The notes below the pieces were generated by a model, which saw only the letters and a program-made list of their open reading frames with translations, was not told the DNA's origin and did no database searches. Shown in pieces: positions 8,505 through 59,361 of a DNA stretch of 64,000 nucleotides. The DNA lies in IMG/VR virus record IMGVR_UViG_3300043446_000435, positions 1-64,000 of that record. One strand, given 5' to 3'. This DNA comes from a virus. Made by a program: the position numbers and the translations under genes. Within the stretch, counting starts at the first letter, position 1. The number at the start of each line of letters is the position of its first letter.

Positions 8505-9021
8505 TGATAGAGGGACCTTGACATTTCTTGTCAATGAGTATAATATAAAGTCATTCCTTGATATCGGATGCGGTCCAGGCGGAATGGTCCAACTGGCTAA
8601 GTGGCGTGGGCTTGATGCGATGGGAATCGACGGCGACTGGGAAGTTCGTAAGGAACAAGATGCGAAAGTTCTTATTCACGACTACACAACTGGTCCTGCG
8701 CCGCTTGAACAGGCTTCACTTCGCACAGAGTTTGATCTTGGTTGGTCTGTAGAGTTTCTTGAACACGTCGAAGAAAAGTATCTAGAAAACTATATGCAGG
8801 ACTTCGCTCGTTGTAAGTATGTTGTTTGCACTGCTGCTGGTCCTGGTGCTCCAGGTCATCATCATGTGAACTGTCAGCCAGAATCATATTGGCACGAAGT
8901 GTTTAATAAGTATGGTTTCGATTATGATGATGAAGTGACACAACGTATCCGCACACAAGAATCAACTATGCAAAAGCCGTTCATGCAACGCACAGGTATG
9001 TTCTTTAAGAGGAGACACTAA
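8428..9021 (+). CDS. SAM-dependent methyltransferase-like protein
   Basis: 197 aa from GTG 8428 (ATG 8413 is an alternative; GGAAG lies 8 bp before the GTG). Motif I is FLDIGCGPGG (about residues 43-52) and the acidic end of strand 2 is GIDGD. A post-I acidic stretch and a VCTAAGPG loop follow. The substrate is unknown; there is no NPPY-type motif, so it is not a typical adenine methylase. A segment TTGACA/TATAAT with only a 15-bp spacer lies inside it at 8518. Confidence 0.7.
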   Translation: MDQNTSEVNQDSLPSHLGGHLNKTHNDRGTLTFLVNEYNIKSFLDIGCGPGGMVQLAKWRGLDAMGIDGDWEVRKEQDAKVLIHDYTTGPAPLEQASLRTEFDLGWSVEFLEHVEEKYLENYMQDFARCKYVVCTAAGPGAPGHHHVNCQPESYWHEVFNKYGFDYDDEVTQRIRTQESTMQKPFMQRTGMFFKRRH

Positions 9022-9731
9022 TGCAAACAGAACTAGATCGTTATTTCTCAACAGCAGAAGCTCAGGCATACGACGAAGGTCTGCGTAGTTTCATGTTGCA
9101 GGTCTATAACTATATGACGGTCGCACTCGCACTCAGCGGCGCAACTGCTCTTGGTGTTTATATGGTTCCTGCCATCAGCGCAGCTATCTGGGGAACAGGG
9201 CTCAAGTGGGTTGTTGTGTTCCTGCCGCTAGTTCTTTCACTTGGATTTGCTTTCCTATTTGACAAGATGAGTTTGCAGCAGACTAAGATTGCGCTGCTTG
9301 TGTTTGCTGTCGCGATGGGCTTGTCGCTCTCGTCAATCTTCCTGATCTACAAGATGGGTAGTATCGCGCAGGTATTCTTTATTTCTGCGGCTACGTTTGG
9401 TGGCGCATCGCTCTATGGCTACACTACCAAAAAGGACTTGACAACCTTCGGTTCATTCCTTATGATGGGTGCTATTGGGCTTGTAATCGCTGGACTTGTG
9501 AACCTGTTTCTACAGAGTTCTATTCTTGCCTTTGCGATTAGCTGTATAGCAGTTCTTGTCTTTACTGGTCTGACAGCTTACGACACGCAGAATCTAAAAA
9601 CTACATACGACTACACTTCTGGTGAAGAACGCGAAAAGGCTGGTGTCTATGGTGCGCTTCAGCTTTATCTCGACTTCATCAATATCTTTGTGAGCTTGCT
9701 CCAACTTCTCGGAGACAAAAAGAATGATTGA
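9021..9731 (+). CDS. Bax inhibitor-1 family membrane protein
   Basis: 236 aa with about seven membrane segments. The family signatures are a C-terminal GLTAYDTQNLK near residue 180 and GALQLYLDFINIFVSLLQLLG near 215. Bacterial members (YccA, YbhL type) are inner-membrane proteins; YccA is known to interact with and restrain the FtsH protease. A phage copy could protect phage proteins from FtsH or alter membrane ion balance, which is inference. It overlaps the next gene by 8 bp. Confidence 0.85.
   Translation: MQTELDRYFSTAEAQAYDEGLRSFMLQVYNYMTVALALSGATALGVYMVPAISAAIWGTGLKWVVVFLPLVLSLGFAFLFDKMSLQQTKIALLVFAVAMGLSLSSIFLIYKMGSIAQVFFISAATFGGASLYGYTTKKDLTTFGSFLMMGAIGLVIAGLVNLFLQSSILAFAISCIAVLVFTGLTAYDTQNLKTTYDYTSGEEREKAGVYGALQLYLDFINIFVSLLQLLGDKKND
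9438..9466 (+). promoter_or_regulatory. Possible sigma70-like promoter inside the Bax inhibitor gene
   Basis: TTGACA at 9438-9443, 17-bp spacer, TATGAT at 9461-9466. Spacing is ideal, but it lies 260 bp before the next start and TTGACA also encodes the Leu-Thr of this gene, so chance is possible. Confidence 0.35.
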
Positions 9732-12524: not shown

Positions 12525-13136
12525 GTGATTATGTCAGCTGATGATTTTGACGATTACGATAATTGGGAAGTTAAGCAACACGCTCGCGTGAGCAAGAAGA
12601 GGATCGGTTCAATTGTTCCTGCTGTTTCGTTTAAGATCCGCGTTCGCGACGACAGTATCGAGGGACCCAATCCTTATCGTTGGGATGATCTGACTTCTTA
12701 TCAGATCTTCGGCGGTAAGCGTGTGATTGTGTTCTCGCTTCCTGGCGCGTTTACGCCAACCTGTTCGACGATGCAGCTGCCTGGATTCGAAACGATGTAT
12801 GACGAGTTCAAGCAGAAGCACAGCATCGACGAAATCTATTGTTTGTCTGTGAATGATGCGTTCACGATGAATGCTTGGGCTAAAGCTCAGGGAATCAAGA
12901 ACGTAAAGGTTATTCCAGACGGCAATCTTGAGTTCACGCAGAAGATGCGTATGAGCGTAGACAAGAGTAATCTTGGCTTTGGTGATCGTAGCTGGCGTTA
13001 TGCTATGATTGTCAACGATGGAAAAGTTGAAGCTTGGTTCGAAGAGCCTGGATTCAGCAACAACTGCGAGACTGATCCTTATGGTGAAACGTCTCCAGAA
13101 AATATCATGAACTGGCTTGACAGTCAGGGTAGTTGA
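12525..13136 (+). CDS. Peroxiredoxin (Prx5-like)
   Basis: 203 aa. It reduces peroxides using the peroxidatic Cys in PGAFTPTCS (about residues 75-83), followed by QLPGFE, the standard Prx5-type active site. The N-terminal 25 residues are an acidic extension. The start is either GTG 12525 (6 nt after AGGAG) or ATG 12531. Phage peroxiredoxins are known and may protect against the host oxidative burst; that role is inferred. Its 3' end contains the promoter for the next unit. Confidence 0.85.
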   Translation: MIMSADDFDDYDNWEVKQHARVSKKRIGSIVPAVSFKIRVRDDSIEGPNPYRWDDLTSYQIFGGKRVIVFSLPGAFTPTCSTMQLPGFETMYDEFKQKHSIDEIYCLSVNDAFTMNAWAKAQGIKNVKVIPDGNLEFTQKMRMSVDKSNLGFGDRSWRYAMIVNDGKVEAWFEEPGFSNNCETDPYGETSPENIMNWLDSQGS

Positions 13137-13347: not shown

Positions 13348-14718
13348 ATGAAAAATACACTTACAGCTCTGGCGCTTCTTGCCTCGACCAGCCTCGCTGG
13401 TGCGGTAGATCTGCCATCTGGAAAGGCTCAACCACAAGCACCAGCAAATTATGTTAAGGTGTGTGATGCTTATGGTTCTGGCTTTTTCTATATTCCTGGA
13501 ACTGATTCATGCTTGCGTGTTGGCGGTATGGTTCGACAGGATTTTGCTTATGTCCCTGCGGGTGACACATATAAGGTAACAGCTGGTGCTCGTGCTATCA
13601 ACACATACGGCGCTGGTCAGAATACAACGGGATGGGAAACTCGTGGTCGTATTGATCTCGATGCTCGCACTCCAACCGACTTCGGCACTGTAAGAACTGC
13701 TGCTGGTATTCGTTTCTCGCGTTCATCAGGCACTCTTGCTGACGTAGCAAATCCATCAGGTGCTTCGCAGTCTGCAACGACTACGACTCCTATCATGGAA
13801 TATGCTTACATCCAGTTCGCTGGTATCACTGCTGGTGCTGCACGAGACAACTTCTCGTTCATGCCTTCAGCTGTTTACTCAGCACAGCACTGGGCTTCGT
13901 TCATCATCAATCCTAAGCAGCTTTCTTATACTGCCATTCTTGGTGGCGGTCTGAGTGCAACAGTTGCTGTTCAGGATGCTACTGATACAGCGATTGCTCC
14001 AGTCGATGGCGTAAATGCTACGACGACTTACTATGCTCCACAGAACGAAAAGAATCTTACTCTCGTAGGTAATCTCCGTTGGGATCAGCCTTGGGGTCAG
14101 GTTCAGGTTATGGGTGCTGGTCGTCAGGCACAAGTTCTTGACACAACTGGTCTAACATACAATCAGACAAAGAGCGTATGGGCAGCTGGCGGTGGTCTCA
14201 AGATCAACACTCCATTCACTGGTAATCAGCAGAACGCTCTGTGGCTTACAGCAGCTTATGCCGACGGTATGACTGAATACACTACAGCATACGGTTCGAA
14301 CAAGATTGCTAACTGGAAGCGTGATCTCAATGGTTGGCAGATGAATCAGCCTTCGATCATTGCTTACAGCACTGGTATCGAGTCTGTTAAGTCTTGGAAC
14401 GCTGCTGCTCTGTATCAGCATTGGCTGACTGACAAGTATCGTATCAATGCGTTTGGTTCATACGGTCAGATTCAGGCTCCAGAATCAGCTAAGGCTTTGG
14501 TGTTCGACGCTAAGAAGGGCTTCGGTGACGCTACTGTTTGGTCAGTCGGTTCAAACTTCGCTTGGCTTCCTACAAAGGACTTCGAGCTTGGCATTGAAGG
14601 TATCTACTCAAACATGAAGCAAGACATCCGTTATACACTCGCTTCTTCAACGAATAAGGTTGAAAGAGAAAGCGATAATAACTGGACGATGCGTCTTCGT
14701 GCTGAACGTCGCTTCTAA
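13348..14718 (+). CDS. Outer-membrane porin of the Rhizobiales type (porin family 2)
   Basis: 456 aa. A signal peptide MKNTLTALALLASTSLAGA is followed by VDLPSGKAQPQ and then VCDAYGSGFFYIPGTDSCLRVGG, the N-terminal signature of Brucella Omp2 and rhizobial RopA-type porins, including the Cys pair. Alternating beta-strand sequence runs to a terminal Phe (LRAERRF), the export signal of outer-membrane beta-barrels. It has a strong ribosome site (AAGGAG) and a nearby promoter. A phage copy would insert a new pore in the host outer membrane; why is unknown. Confidence 0.88.
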   Translation: MKNTLTALALLASTSLAGAVDLPSGKAQPQAPANYVKVCDAYGSGFFYIPGTDSCLRVGGMVRQDFAYVPAGDTYKVTAGARAINTYGAGQNTTGWETRGRIDLDARTPTDFGTVRTAAGIRFSRSSGTLADVANPSGASQSATTTTPIMEYAYIQFAGITAGAARDNFSFMPSAVYSAQHWASFIINPKQLSYTAILGGGLSATVAVQDATDTAIAPVDGVNATTTYYAPQNEKNLTLVGNLRWDQPWGQVQVMGAGRQAQVLDTTGLTYNQTKSVWAAGGGLKINTPFTGNQQNALWLTAAYADGMTEYTTAYGSNKIANWKRDLNGWQMNQPSIIAYSTGIESVKSWNAAALYQHWLTDKYRINAFGSYGQIQAPESAKALVFDAKKGFGDATVWSVGSNFAWLPTKDFELGIEGIYSNMKQDIRYTLASSTNKVERESDNNWTMRLRAERRF

Positions 14719-14926: not shown

Positions 14927-16039
14927 ATGATTACATTCAATCCTAACAAGTTTGGTTATTACGAAGTAGACGGCCGCCCAACATACAGTAAGCTAGAAGC
15001 TGCTGAATGGGCTAAGTTCAACAAGTCAACTATTCGTTGGGACTTCAATGATGATGTGTTCACCAAGATAGACTGGACTGTTGAACCTCCGAATAGCTTA
15101 TGGGATCTCTATAAAGCAAGAGCGAGGCAAATCCGTGAAGCATACGATTATGTTGTATTATGGTATTCTGGCGGTAGCGATAGTCATAATATGCTCCTCG
15201 CCTGGATTGACGCTGGTCTCAAGATTGATGAGATAGCTACCACGTGGAACTACGAAACGACTGGCGATGCGCTCAATCACTACAACGCAGAAATTACCAA
15301 TGTCGTCATTCCAGACGTTAAGAAACTACAAGAATCTGGATTAGAGTTCAACTTCCGTATCATTGATATGGCTGAGCCATCGCTCAAGCTATTCGACGTG
15401 TGGGGTACGAACTTTGAATATAACATCAACTGTCACTTCAGCCCAAACAATCCAGCTCGTTCTATGCTCCGCGAAACGATTCCTGAGTATAAGAACATGA
15501 TTGCTGCTGGTAAGAAAGTCTGTTTCGTTTGGGGTAAAGAAAAGCCATATCTTGGTTTCGATCAGATAACAAGAAAACACTATTTCCACTTCTTTGATAA
15601 CGGCGATAACTGCGTTAGCCCATACGTTCAGCAAAAGTATTATGAAGGATGGTATGATGAGTTCTTTTACTGGACTCCCGACTTTCCATTGATTCCAGTC
15701 AAGCAAGCACACGTTATCAAGAACTTCTTAGAACACGCGACTAACGATTCTTTGTTCTGTGATCTAAGTCATAACGGCTACTCAGTCAAGACGGGTAAAT
15801 ATCTGAAGGATCGTATCATTAAGATGATCCTGTATCCCAAGTGGAACAACGATATCTTCAGTAATGGTAAGACGAGCTCGTTCACATACTCTATGCGCGA
15901 CGACTGGTTTTTCCTAGGCAATATAGATCAGAAGAAACGATTCATTGAGATAACGAATTCCTATTTCAATAGAATCGATCCAACCAACAAAGAACGCATC
16001 AGCGTCTCACCTATGTTCAGCAGGAAGTATATGATATGA
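14927..16039 (+). CDS. PP-loop (N-type) ATPase family protein
   Basis: 370 aa from ATG 14927. VVLWYSGGSDSHNML (about residues 76-90) contains SGGSDS, the pyrophosphate-binding PP-loop of enzymes that adenylate a substrate (PAPS reductase, QueC, TilS and asparagine-synthase folds). The substrate cannot be told from sequence. Several Cys and aromatic residues follow. It is the first of four overlapping genes with a DUF2061 protein and two radical SAM proteins, so a joint chemical modification pathway is plausible. Confidence 0.75.
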   Translation: MITFNPNKFGYYEVDGRPTYSKLEAAEWAKFNKSTIRWDFNDDVFTKIDWTVEPPNSLWDLYKARARQIREAYDYVVLWYSGGSDSHNMLLAWIDAGLKIDEIATTWNYETTGDALNHYNAEITNVVIPDVKKLQESGLEFNFRIIDMAEPSLKLFDVWGTNFEYNINCHFSPNNPARSMLRETIPEYKNMIAAGKKVCFVWGKEKPYLGFDQITRKHYFHFFDNGDNCVSPYVQQKYYEGWYDEFFYWTPDFPLIPVKQAHVIKNFLEHATNDSLFCDLSHNGYSVKTGKYLKDRIIKMILYPKWNNDIFSNGKTSSFTYSMRDDWFFLGNIDQKKRFIEITNSYFNRIDPTNKERISVSPMFSRKYMI

Positions 16040-16479
16040 GTTTCACAGAATCACACACACGTTCCGTAGCAAAAACGCTGACTGTTCGCGTCTGTTTCAC
16101 GCTCAGTCATATTCTAAACGGATGGATTGTGACTGGCTCGTGGATGACTGGTGTTACTATTGCCAGCTTCGCAGTCTTAATCAATATGCTCCTGTTCTGG
16201 GGACACGAGCGCGTCTGGAACTGGGTGCAGTGGAATCGTAAGCCAAAAGATAATATGTTCTTTGTCGATGGGCATCCACGCACAATCAGTAAGTCTGTTA
16301 CTTGGCGAGCAATCATCACACTCAATAACTTCCTGATCCCATTCATTACGACAGGATCATGGCAAGTCGCGCTTGCGTTTCTAACTGTAGCAACGTTCCT
16401 AAACATTGTGGTCTACTACACGCATGAGCGTGTGTGGAACATGATCAAGTGGGGTAAGAATGCTACCGACGAGCAGTAA
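16036..16479 (+). CDS. Membrane protein with two DUF2061 repeats
   Basis: 147 aa. Two similar halves each start with a conserved polar entry (ESHTRSVAKTLTVR and GHPRTISKSVTWR), continue through two hydrophobic segments and end in HERVWN (about residues 55 and 128). That is a tandem duplication of the DUF2061 unit, giving about four membrane passes. Function of the family is unknown. It overlaps both neighbours. Confidence 0.75.
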   Translation: MSFTESHTRSVAKTLTVRVCFTLSHILNGWIVTGSWMTGVTIASFAVLINMLLFWGHERVWNWVQWNRKPKDNMFFVDGHPRTISKSVTWRAIITLNNFLIPFITTGSWQVALAFLTVATFLNIVVYYTHERVWNMIKWGKNATDEQ

Positions 16480-26077: not shown

Positions 26078-27097
26078 ATGTCAGAATTTCCAATTAAAAT
26101 CCGTTGGCTTATTGCGCATGATCCAGAGTATCTGTTCATCCGAACAGCTCAAGCATTTGCAGCAGAAGTCGACAGAGTTCTTCCTGGTCAGTTCGACTTC
26201 GAAATCTTAACTCCTGGATACTATAACAAGAAGTATGGAGACATTCCAGAACTGGGATGGGCTCCTGCTCGCGTTCCTGGAGTTGAGCTAGAACCAGCTG
26301 AAGGAACTGTAATCGTTCCTTGGGATGAAGATGTAAGTCGCATTTCTCGTGCATGGATGAAAGCTATGGATGATGGCAAGATCCACATGAGTCAGACTCA
26401 GATCACAGTCATCGGTGGATTCTATCGTCCATTCCACACTCTCGATCTTCCGTTCCTATTCAATGGTCACGAACACGTTTCTCGCGTTCTTGACGGAAAA
26501 ATTGGCGATGAGCTCTGTGAAGAACTGAGCAAGAACACACAAGCTCGTGGTCTTGGATTTACATACTCTGGTGGCTATCGTATCGTAGGTTCAAACGAAC
26601 CAATCGAAAGCCTAGAAGATCTGAACGAGATGGACATCACGACAGTTCCTTCGACGAGTAAGTTCTTTAGTGTTCTTGCTGAAAACGCTAAGACTCGTGA
26701 CTCACAGACTCAAGAAGAAATGATCGATTCGATTAAAAAAGGTAACGCGATCGAAACGACATATCTCAGATTCAAAGGCAAGAACATCCTTAAGACAAAT
26801 CACAGCATGTTCATGACGACGATTCTGATTAGCAACAAGCTATTCGATTCGCTGACTCCTGAACAACAGAAAGTGTTCCGTCGTGCGGCTAAGGAAGTTG
26901 CAAAGTTAGAACGTAAGTGGTCGGTTGATGATGCCGAGCAGTATGAAGTAAATGCTAAAGAAAACGGAATTACGATCAAAGAAGTAAGTAAAGAAGAAAA
27001 GATTAAGATGTTCGACGCTGCTGTTCCACAGTATCGTCTTGCGAATAAGCTGTTCCCAGGTTCTAGAGAACTGGTAGCCAAAATCAAAACTAGCTAA
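26078..27097 (+). CDS. TRAP-type (DctP) substrate-binding protein without signal peptide
   Basis: 339 aa. FYRPFHTLDLPFLFNGHEH (about residues 107-125), VLDGKIGDEL, ARGLGF, GGYRIVGSNEPIESLEDLNEM (about 162-182) and a conserved LTPEQQKVF near 267 follow the DctP fold of periplasmic TRAP binding proteins. The usual N-terminal export signal is missing: it starts MSEFPIKIRWLIA. It may therefore be a virion or cytoplasmic protein rather than a transporter part. It is preceded by a late-type TATAAATA box. Confidence 0.75.
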   Translation: MSEFPIKIRWLIAHDPEYLFIRTAQAFAAEVDRVLPGQFDFEILTPGYYNKKYGDIPELGWAPARVPGVELEPAEGTVIVPWDEDVSRISRAWMKAMDDGKIHMSQTQITVIGGFYRPFHTLDLPFLFNGHEHVSRVLDGKIGDELCEELSKNTQARGLGFTYSGGYRIVGSNEPIESLEDLNEMDITTVPSTSKFFSVLAENAKTRDSQTQEEMIDSIKKGNAIETTYLRFKGKNILKTNHSMFMTTILISNKLFDSLTPEQQKVFRRAAKEVAKLERKWSVDDAEQYEVNAKENGITIKEVSKEEKIKMFDAAVPQYRLANKLFPGSRELVAKIKTS

Positions 27098-54851: not shown

Positions 54852-55543
54852 GATTTGATCATAGTCCTTACATAGATTTACCAAGAGCAAAACAAATCAA
54901 CACACCATCGGGGCGTCGCTATCAGACCCCCGATGGAAACGTGTATCCTTCCATCACCACAGTTCTGGGCGATCAGCCGGAGAAGAAGAAAGCCATTGCT
55001 GAGTGGCGTGCTCGTGTTGGTGAAGCCGAAGCAAACAAAATCAGCTCGCAAGCCGCTCGTCGTGGTACCGATCTCCACAACCTTATGGAAACCTACATTT
55101 TAGGAGACGAGATTGATGCAAAGAAAATCATGCCCGCGACACTCGCACGTTTTCGTCCTGTTCAGAAATGTCTGGATGAGAATCTACAACTTGTTTATGC
55201 GTCTGAAACACCAATGTTCTCAGACATCCTCCGCATCGCAGGGACCGCAGACTTAATCTGCGAATGGAATGGCGAAGTGACTGTGATTGATTTTAAGACG
55301 GCTGCAAGAATGAAGACAGCCGATATGATTACCGACTACTTCCTACAAGCCACAGCCTACTCGATCATGTTCGAGGAGCATACTGGTATCGAATGTCATC
55401 ACTTTGCCATTCTCATGGTTTCTGACGAAGGCGAGTTCCAAGTATTCTCAGGCAAACGCAATGACTACGTCCGCCAATTGATTCGTGTAAGAGATCAATA
55501 TGAGTGGAGGAAAAGTCTTGACGAACACAGGCAAACCGCTTAA
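54848..55543 (+). CDS. PD-(D/E)XK exonuclease (RecB/Cas4-like)
   Basis: 231 aa with TTG start in TTGA. GTADLICEWNGEVTVIDFKTA (split motif: GTAD-L near residue 137, IDFKTA near 150) is the PD-(D/E)XK nuclease core, and a preceding E in an alpha helix plus QATAYSIMF near 172 (QxxxY) fit the RecB-like family. It may process DNA ends in recombination. tmRNA follows directly. Confidence 0.8.
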   Translation: MRFDHSPYIDLPRAKQINTPSGRRYQTPDGNVYPSITTVLGDQPEKKKAIAEWRARVGEAEANKISSQAARRGTDLHNLMETYILGDEIDAKKIMPATLARFRPVQKCLDENLQLVYASETPMFSDILRIAGTADLICEWNGEVTVIDFKTAARMKTADMITDYFLQATAYSIMFEEHTGIECHHFAILMVSDEGEFQVFSGKRNDYVRQLIRVRDQYEWRKSLDEHRQTA

Positions 55544-55551
55544 TATAAATA
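55518..55551 (+). promoter_or_regulatory. Probable tmRNA promoter region
   Basis: Two options overlap: TTGACG (55518-55523) with 17-bp spacer and TAATAT (55541-55546), and an exact T4 late box TATAAATA (55544-55551). Either would start transcription near the 5' end of the tmRNA. Confidence 0.55.
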
Positions 55552-55552
55552 T

Positions 55553-55866
55553 CACGCTGAGGTCGTTGAGGCGTATGGAATAAGCGTTTCGGACGCGGGT
55601 GCGATACCCGCCGCCTCCACCATAAACACAAGCGTCCTGCGAGAGAGTTGCTTTAGGGTAGGACGACAGGAAATAGAACAGCAACTAATACCTGTTCCAC
55701 TTGTGTTTATGATGGGGGCGAAATAGGTTCGACGGGATGCAGTAAAGATGCGAAGAGACCAAAAGCACGTTCTAGATGCAAACGACAATGCACCTGTAGC
55801 TATGGCACTCGCTGCCTAAGCATGAGCTCGGGAGGAGCTTGGAAACAGAATCCTCCCACTTCCCAC
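55553..55866 (+). ncRNA. ssrA: Circularly permuted two-piece tmRNA
   Basis: The acceptor piece comes first: GCGGG-TGCGATA-CCCGC T-arm, CGCCTCC, discriminator A and encoded CCA ending at 55622. The coding piece follows, from GGGGGCG (55714-55720), which pairs with CGCCTCC (one G.T), then TTCGACGGG. The tag frame at 55778-55819 reads ANDNAPVAMALAA-stop, a proper degradation tag ending LAA. CATAAACACAAG (55621-55632) pairs perfectly with CTTGTGTTTATG (55700-55711), closing the intervening loop for processing. GGGAGGA/TCCTCCC follows the tag. This order is the alphaproteobacterial form. Outer ends are approximate. Confidence 0.88.
55778..55819 (+). other. tmRNA tag reading frame
   Basis: Resume codon GCA, then codons for ANDNAPVAMALAA and TAA. 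Ribosomes stalled on broken mRNA would add this peptide. The LAA end is read by ClpXP. Confidence 0.85.
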
Positions 55867-57622: not shown

Positions 57623-57732
57623 TTTGGTTCTTAGTCAAATACTACGCCAGCAGAGTATGGTACAAGATCACATTCCGTGAACATCCAATCGAGAAAGCTC
57701 GTAAGCAGGATCCGTTTATCTATGAAGAATAA
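57619..57732 (+). CDS. Tiny basic protein
   Basis: 37 aa, ATGA overlap with the preceding stop and a short overlap with the next gene. Aromatic and basic (MIWFLVKYYASRVWYKI), so possibly membrane-surface bound. Confidence 0.5.
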   Translation: MIWFLVKYYASRVWYKITFREHPIEKARKQDPFIYEE

Positions 57733-58573
57733 GTATGTGGGCTTCACTCAGGGATTCCACACAGAATCCCTTGCCATAATTGATGAAGATGGGAACTGCG
57801 AGTTTCATCCTCGCGGCTTTGATCCCTCGATTGTAGATACAGATAACATCGCGTTCTTCGAACGTCCATATCTCAAGAAAACGCGACAGCTATTCGCTGG
57901 ACAATATAAGTCAGCGCTGGCTCCGCTCAATCTAAAGCTCAAGCCAAAGAAATACTTCGCGCATCATTTGTGTCATGCTGCGAATGCGTTTCAGCAATCC
58001 AACTACACGAGCGCAAGAGTTGTTGTAGCAGATTCTATTGGTGAGTGGGATACAGTTAGCATTTGGGATGCTCACTACGATCATTATGGTTACGCACAAT
58101 ACGAAAAGATCCTTTCATACAAATATCCTTTCAGCGTTGGTCTTTTCTATAGCTCTATCACACAGCTATGCGGATTCAAGCCAAACGCTGAAGAAGGAAA
58201 GTTGATGGAGCTTTCCAAGCTAGGAAAGTTGAGTGAAGATCTTAATGATCTCATGTTCAAGCAGCTATACGAAATGAATAATCATCGTGGTTGTTCTGGT
58301 ATGTATCCTTACTATAGCAAAGAAGATATCGCAGCCGGCGCACAACACACAATAGAAAAGTTTTTGAGATCCTTCTTCAAGGATTCTAAGAATTGTTGTT
58401 TCGCTGGCGGAGTTGCGCTCAACAAATTATTCGTTGACAAGTTGCAAACTATGCACTATAATATATTCGTACCTGAAAATCCTGGTGATCCTGGCTCTGC
58501 GATTGGTGCGGCTGCTTTGCTTTATGGGAGAAAGATATGTTCTATGAAAACTGTGGAAACGACAAGCCACTAA
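57722..58573 (+). CDS. Carbamoyltransferase N-terminal domain protein (NodU/TobZ type)
   Basis: 283 aa from ATG 57722. It matches the Kae1-like N-terminal domain of NodU/CmcH/TobZ O-carbamoyltransferases: HHLCHAANAF (residues 81-90, H-H-x2-H metal site), VVVADSIGEWDT, GLFYSSIT, EEGKLMEL and CFAGGVALN. The YrdC-like second half of the usual 570-aa enzyme is absent, so it must work with another protein or only do one half-reaction. Rhizobial NodU decorates Nod factors. Confidence 0.75.
   Translation: MKNKYVGFTQGFHTESLAIIDEDGNCEFHPRGFDPSIVDTDNIAFFERPYLKKTRQLFAGQYKSALAPLNLKLKPKKYFAHHLCHAANAFQQSNYTSARVVVADSIGEWDTVSIWDAHYDHYGYAQYEKILSYKYPFSVGLFYSSITQLCGFKPNAEEGKLMELSKLGKLSEDLNDLMFKQLYEMNNHRGCSGMYPYYSKEDIAAGAQHTIEKFLRSFFKDSKNCCFAGGVALNKLFVDKLQTMHYNIFVPENPGDPGSAIGAAALLYGRKICSMKTVETTSH
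58434..58462 (+). promoter_or_regulatory. Sigma70-like promoter for KDO-8-P synthase
   Basis: TTGACA 58434-58439, 17-bp spacer, TATAAT 58457-58462, perfect consensus inside the carbamoyltransferase gene. Confidence 0.7.
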
Positions 58574-59361
58574 GCATTATCGCTGGTCCGTGTGTGTTTG
58601 AATCTAAGGATCATGCTGTAGAAACTGCGCTCGCGCTACGCGAAGCCTGTATCAGAGTCGGGCATAAGTTCGACAGAGAAATCAACTTCATTTATAAGAC
58701 CTCTTTCGATAAGGCTAATCGAAGCTCTGCTGATAGTTACAGAAGTGCAGGATTCGACGAAGCCTTTTACGGAATGGAGGCCGTCCGTGGTCGAGGAATC
58801 GAAGTTCTCACGGACGTTCACGATGCGTGGCAATGTGAACAGGTGCAAGCTGATATCCTACAGATCCCTGCATTCCTTTGCCGACAGACTGATCTTATTC
58901 GCGCAGCAGCAGAAAGTGGTAAGCCTGTGAACGTGAAGAAAGGTCAGTTCTTATCTCCGTGGGAAATGAAGAACGTTGCTGAGAAGCTGCGGAAGTTTGG
59001 CTGTGACAAGTATATGTTCACGGAGCGTGGTACGACGTTTGGTTATAATAATCTAGTCGTCGATATGCGTTCGCTTGAAGTGATGAAGCAATATACCAAA
59101 GCTGTCGTTATGGACTGCACTCACGCAGTGCAGCTCCCAGGCGGTAATGGCACTAGCTCTGGTGGTCAGCGTCAGTATGTTTCAACTATGGCTCGCGCTG
59201 CTGTTGCTGTTGGTGTAGCTGCATTGTTCATGGAAGTTCATGAATCGCCAGACAATGCGCCTTCTGATGGTCCGAACATGATTTACCTTGACAGCTTCGA
59301 GCAAATGATATATGATTTAATAGAATTGGATTATATCTCAAAGCGGAGCTTGAGGAGATGA
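58537..59361 (+). CDS. kdsA: KDO-8-phosphate synthase
   Basis: 274 aa. It joins arabinose-5-phosphate and PEP to make KDO-8-P for LPS inner core. IAGPCVFES (Cys19), KTSFDKANR, LQIPAFLCRQTDLI, VNVKKGQF, TERGTTFGYNNLV and the QLPGG...SGG loop are all family blocks. AGPC and QLPGG mark the metal-dependent class. It overlaps the carbamoyltransferase gene by 37 bp. No kdsB is recognised in the window. Confidence 0.9.
   Translation: MFYENCGNDKPLSIIAGPCVFESKDHAVETALALREACIRVGHKFDREINFIYKTSFDKANRSSADSYRSAGFDEAFYGMEAVRGRGIEVLTDVHDAWQCEQVQADILQIPAFLCRQTDLIRAAAESGKPVNVKKGQFLSPWEMKNVAEKLRKFGCDKYMFTERGTTFGYNNLVVDMRSLEVMKQYTKAVVMDCTHAVQLPGGNGTSSGGQRQYVSTMARAAVAVGVAALFMEVHESPDNAPSDGPNMIYLDSFEQMIYDLIELDYISKRSLRR
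59288..59316 (+). promoter_or_regulatory. Possible sigma70-like promoter for gene 59358
   Basis: TTGACA 59288-59293, 17-bp spacer, TATGAT 59311-59316, inside the end of kdsA. Confidence 0.55.

Follow-up and report, generated by a model that had tools for sequence, protein, structure and literature searches.

The tmRNA gene and its phage setting

The DNA analysed here, a stretch of 64,000 nucleotides that we refer to as the window, belongs to a virus record of 85,440 bases, which is itself a fragment. Positions 55557-55860 of the window make up a complete circularly permuted tmRNA gene of the alphaproteobacterial type. ARAGORN reports it as permuted ('tmRNA*') and gives the tag as ANDNAPVAMALAA, and the gene scores 109.5 bits with the Rfam model RF04321 (tmRNA_permuted) over 55561-55819 and 104.4 bits with RF01849 (alpha_tmRNA) over 55514-55860, so that the covariance search proposed by the initial annotation came out far above the gathering scores of 47 and 50, respectively. 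Its central claim, that a T4-like phage carries its own complete permuted tmRNA of the alpha type, tag included, is borne out by the ARAGORN call, by both Rfam models and by a gp32-like protein with 54-64% identity to cyanomyovirus gp32. The promoter motif and the parts of the gene are as follows.

55544-55551, + strand: T4-type late promoter motif TATAAATA (sequence; octamer conserved in phage tmRNAs)
55557-55622, + strand: acceptor piece, comprising the tRNA-like 3' half, T-arm, acceptor strand and CCA (ARAGORN; RF04321 start at 55561; sequence)
55714-55860, + strand: coding piece, comprising the acceptor strand at 55714-55720, the tag frame and a 3' hairpin or pseudoknot (RF01849 and RF04321 alignments; sequence)
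55773-55777, + strand: resume-setting motif TAGAT directly before the resume codon, with A at -4 (comparison of phage copies)
55778-55819, + strand: tag reading frame ANDNAPVAMALAA and stop TAA (ARAGORN; sequence)
55830-55857, + strand: 3' hairpin or pseudoknot GGGAGGA/TCCTCCC, part of the coding piece

Read from the sequence, the acceptor stem pairs GGGGGCG (55714-55720) with CGCCTCC (55612-55618) in seven pairs that include G3-U70, the alanine determinant, and the acceptor half, ending in CCA at 55620-55622, lies upstream of the coding half in the permuted order. The T-arm (GCGGG/TGCGATA/CCCGC) occupies 55595-55611. The tag frame, TAGAT-GCA, ANDNAPVAMALAA, TAA, runs from the resume codon GCA (55778-55780) through 13 residues with a hydrophobic AA end to the stop at 55817-55819. 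Acceptor stem, T-arm and tag are thus all complete, as had been claimed; the G at position 55 of the T-loop, which had been singled out as a peculiarity, is real but ordinary for an alpha-type tmRNA, since most phage and bacterial copies of this type have the consensus GGCRGTA. Nearly all the phage copies listed share T-A at -5/-4 of the resume codon, and an A at -4 is also found in E. coli tmRNA. Gene order, acceptor stem with G3-U70, T-arm, tag frame and an intervening segment (ITS) are what the window shares with the alpha_tmRNA (RF01849) and tmRNA_permuted (RF04321) families; the gene order and the ITS suggest that a precursor would be cut into two pieces held together by pairing, and the resulting tmRNA may well tag proteins.

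In contrast to alphaproteobacterial tmRNAs, the window's gene is phage-borne, follows a late promoter motif and carries a tag pattern not found in bacteria: ANDNAP[LIVFM]AMA had no match in the contigs of GTDB species genomes, which rules out a bacterial source of the tag among them. TATAAATA, at 55544-55551, follows immediately on the stop codon with which the exonuclease gene upstream ends. When a 55-nt upstream stretch was tested, the exact octamer was present in 117 of 186 phage tmRNAs (background 0.4%) and its position was nearly fixed, almost always 41-50 nt upstream of CGGAC in the T-arm, a range of 10 nt, as against 0 of 31 bacterial tmRNA genes. The octamer is the motif of T4 late promoters and most naturally suggests that the tmRNA has a start of its own, used late in infection. 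The spacing of T4 late promoters presumably puts this start near 55557, where the acceptor piece would begin.

Permuted tmRNAs in T4-like phages, which the initial annotation had presented as notable, are already known: a 2022 study (PMC9004378) reports that 402 phages yielded 133 unique tmRNA structures, of which 53 were two-piece and came mostly from aquatic phages, and includes the T4-like isolate Melnitz. The ssrA gene of this Methylophilales phage (MZ577095) is the same kind of permuted tmRNA gene, likewise with TATAAATA just upstream and a cassette in its ITS; early expression has been proposed for it, and a glutamine riboswitch is reported 3' of the gene (PMC9004378). What is new here is the conservation of the promoter, the ITS module, the exchange of cassettes, the genes within ITSs and a natural variant of the resume motif.

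A pattern for the coding piece recovered 92 viral contigs, most of them confirmed by ARAGORN. In a tree of sampled phage tmRNAs and 54 bacterial ones, whose alignment extended in part into the promoter, the two groups are split by a 100/100 branch; with the promoter left out, ten bacteria still separate from the phages at 100/98.

The window also carries PhoH, primase and exonuclease genes and 26 tRNA genes called by ARAGORN, and a thymidylate synthase gene is present too. Neither megablast nor blastn gave a DNA match of the window or its tmRNA to named phages. The tmRNA lies mostly at the same locus in the PhoH-neighbour relatives, and this, together with the T4-like neighbours and a second contig (L094), rules out a chance match or a contaminating host gene. 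No SmpB gene was found in the 85-kb record, and the tmRNA would therefore need host SmpB, with which we assume it works in trans-translation; since the record is a fragment, the phage may possibly encode SmpB elsewhere in its genome. An outer-membrane porin gene of the Porin_2 family (PF02530) lies at 13348-14718. This family is known chiefly from Hyphomicrobiales, and the porin gene together with the alpha-type tmRNA points to an alphaproteobacterial host. Further host-like metabolic and membrane genes were observed at 26078-27097, 58537-59361, 57677-58573, 9021-9731, 12525-13136 and 16036-16479 (DctP solute-binding protein, DAHP/KDO8P synthase family, carbamoyltransferase, Bax1-I, redoxin and DUF2061).

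The second contig, L094 (the same contig as L063), aligns with the window over 15.1 kb at 99.93% identity, the differences being two mismatches and one gap of 9 nt. The gap, which falls in the region L094:7990-8070, corresponds to the loss of TTCTAGATG (55770-55778 or an equivalent register): exactly the resume motif is gone, and the tRNA-like half is still present. Tagging may truly have been lost in this phage, or the contig may be misassembled; in the former case tagging is perhaps dispensable in this population.

A structured RNA in the intervening segment

Between the two pieces lies an ITS of 91 nt with the following parts.

55623-55713, + strand: ITS, a compact RNA cassette with a closing stem and two hairpins with complementary loops (covariation; 22 viral contigs; z -4.74)
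55621-55632, + strand: 5' arm of the 12-bp inverted repeat (P1), overlapping the CA of CCA (sequence; compensatory change in 5 of 9 P1 pairs)
55633-55665, + strand: hairpin P2, CGTCCT/AGGACG, loop GTTGCT at 55647-55652 (compensatory change in 3 of 6 pairs)
55666-55695, + strand: hairpin P3, ACAGG/CCTGT, loop AGCAAC at 55680-55685 (compensatory change in 1 of 5 pairs)
55700-55711, + strand: 3' arm of the 12-bp inverted repeat (P1) (sequence; covariation)

The inverted repeat (55621-55632/55700-55711) is perfect, as described in the initial annotation, and it does close the loop that joins the two halves; as a special feature it falls away, being an ordinary ITS hairpin that alphaproteobacteria have as well. 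The unusual part, which that annotation missed, is what the ITS contains and the fact that ITSs are exchanged.

The predicted fold has an energy of -30.4 kcal/mol against a mean of -16.6 for shuffled sequences (z -4.74). A search with the ITS-loop pattern identified 22 viral contigs, and every match lay inside a tmRNA gene, 3' of the CCA and 5' of the coding piece. Relaxing the loop pattern returned the same 22 contigs and one more, L277, which has no match to the covariance model of the module; the choice of pattern therefore does not account for the invariance of the loops. The 12 distinct copies of the module fit a single structure, in which all 312 of 312 cells are standard pairs and 9 of 26 pairs have compensatory changes, and none of 500 shuffles scored as high on four of five covariation measures, while slid controls collapsed. 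The P2 and P3 loops, GTTGCT and AGCAAC, are complementary, and a loop-loop helix between them is possible; this helix is invariant across copies and for that reason has no covariation.

A covariance model of the module scores its members above 100 bits and everything else below 26 bits (192 sources). Among 4227 Rfam families searched at E values up to 10, none beyond the tmRNA models passed within 55623-55713, the matches to MIR2871 and RAGATH-21 being far below their gathering scores, so that a known Rfam family is ruled out for the module. It occurs once in the 85-kb record, and a search of 385 alphaproteobacterial genomes, with strict filters and without a positive control, gave no match. 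We read the module as a selected, compact RNA with a putative activity of its own, most likely that of a small phage RNA or of an element for processing or stability.

Exchange of intervening segments and the genes within them

The 189 distinct phage ITSs, taken from metagenome contigs by pattern-based sampling that favours tmRNAs close to the patterns, range from 27 to 247 nt and include 33 recurring families. Their median of 88 nt is two to three times that of 28 bacterial ITSs (30.5 nt, range 5-47), a sample of the best-scoring model hits to which longer ones exist, up to 232 nt. The 232-nt ITS is that of a bacterial tmRNA (L309, genome G076) and contains a repeated block.

Phages swap ITSs as cassettes between tmRNA genes. 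L017 and L061 have identical halves (86/86 and 150/150) and unrelated ITSs; L157 and L152 have identical ITSs (92/92) and divergent halves (72/82 and 107/132). Within the window's ITS family, into which the tandem copy L159 links three ITSs that belong to a second module, identity is higher in the ITS than in the tmRNA for 132 of 142 pairs, and a single origin of the window's module was rejected on a tree of the tmRNA without promoter or ITS (delta lnL 367, p-AU 4e-13). Two close tmRNA relatives of the window, L007 and L083, have the same tag and different ITSs. The exchange has probably proceeded by recombination across the conserved tmRNA halves. In L159 and L164 the ITS consists of tandem modules, the window's and then a second known one, with GATGGGGGCG duplicated, an arrangement that would fit the addition of a cassette to an existing one.

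Longer ITSs of relatives differ from the window's non-coding module in that many hold small open reading frames, often with a Shine-Dalgarno sequence; these were observed at L204, L222, L263, L255, L184, L226, L228, L192, L020, L266 and L278, the last being Melnitz. In seven family sets, two of which are subgroups of one protein family, dN/dS was 0.09-0.20 in the coding frame and the other two frames contained stops (one further family was too uniform for the test), a pattern that indicates purifying selection on small ITS genes in relatives, Melnitz included. The Melnitz frame lies within the annotated tmRNA and is absent from the list of coding sequences, and the contents of this ITS, read here as an unannotated gene, are not described in the consulted passages of PMC9004378. 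Pfam and PHROGs gave weak matches to the ITS micro-proteins, the best a sub-threshold one to DUF2061. One of these, the WSICADI membrane micro-protein, was found by its sequence pattern in 87 distinct places (L325-L429): in a tmRNA ITS at about 58 (43 by script and about 15 from reading the downstream sequence), as a free-standing small gene at about 21, and at contig edges or in unrelated settings for the remainder. Since it also occurs outside tmRNA genes, it has moved into ITSs or been taken from them. We found no account of cargo in a tmRNA ITS in the open-access literature.

Possible roles of the tmRNA and its insert

The explanation we favour, with a probability of roughly 0.7, is that the window encodes a tmRNA for ribosome rescue late in infection that uses host factors and whose ITS is a selected RNA cassette swapped between phages. 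Transcription from the T4-type late promoter would yield one precursor late in infection, from which host tRNA-processing enzymes would excise the ITS to leave a two-piece tmRNA. Using host alanyl-tRNA synthetase (AlaRS) and host SmpB, this RNA would release ribosomes stalled on broken mRNA, and the tagged products would pass to host ClpXP-type proteases. Such a course of events departs from the early expression proposed for Melnitz.

The tmRNA could instead act as a decoy or competitor, which occupies host SmpB, AlaRS or ribosomes and so dampens host trans-translation rather than performing it. The RNA of mycobacteriophage DS6A, also a phage-encoded tmRNA-like molecule, has no tag frame and, expressed in E. 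coli, inhibits host tmRNA (as cited in PMC11915505), and L094 similarly retains a tRNA-like half without the resume motif; the window's gene, however, is permuted, its tag frame is complete, and none of the rescue features tested is missing from it. As the tag frame, its ANDN start and its ALAA-type end are kept in divergent phages as well, we regard a decoy as unlikely. The L094 deletion would also suit a passenger gene that the phage picked up from a host and that is now decaying, and tmRNA genes are frequent integration sites, but phage tmRNAs form their own group, occupy a conserved locus, follow a phage promoter and carry a tag pattern without a match in bacterial contigs, which leaves this account very improbable.

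A further alternative concerns the ITS part only and is therefore compatible with the rescue role: the segment may be neutral filler, with any hairpin that lets the precursor fold being sufficient and recombination in the conserved flanks shuffling the interiors, while the tmRNA itself works. The great number of unrelated interiors (27-247 nt), the shortness of bacterial ITSs (only 5-47 nt) and the easy route for recombination that conserved flanks offer all speak for filler. The compensatory changes in the module's hairpins and its conserved loops, recovered as the same set with the relaxed pattern, speak against it, as do the cassettes that relatives have at this site, which code for proteins and are under purifying selection, so that we consider filler a tentative explanation with the odds against it. 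We lean slightly towards a broader proposal, in which the ITS of phage permuted tmRNAs would be a general cargo site for exchangeable functional cassettes, either structured RNAs or micro-protein genes such as that of Melnitz. The tmRNA late promoter would drive the expression of these cassettes, and processing of the tmRNA would release or expose them. If so, the supposed waste of two-piece tmRNAs would carry genes and RNAs missed by current annotation, and protein genes would be nested within a structural RNA gene and exchanged very precisely. The phage tmRNA locus offers several handles: its late promoter motif, a nearly identical phage with a natural variant of the resume motif, and an insert that can be swapped. 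As a minor observation, one genome (G099) contains a second, divergent permuted tmRNA (L315), which may be a prophage copy.
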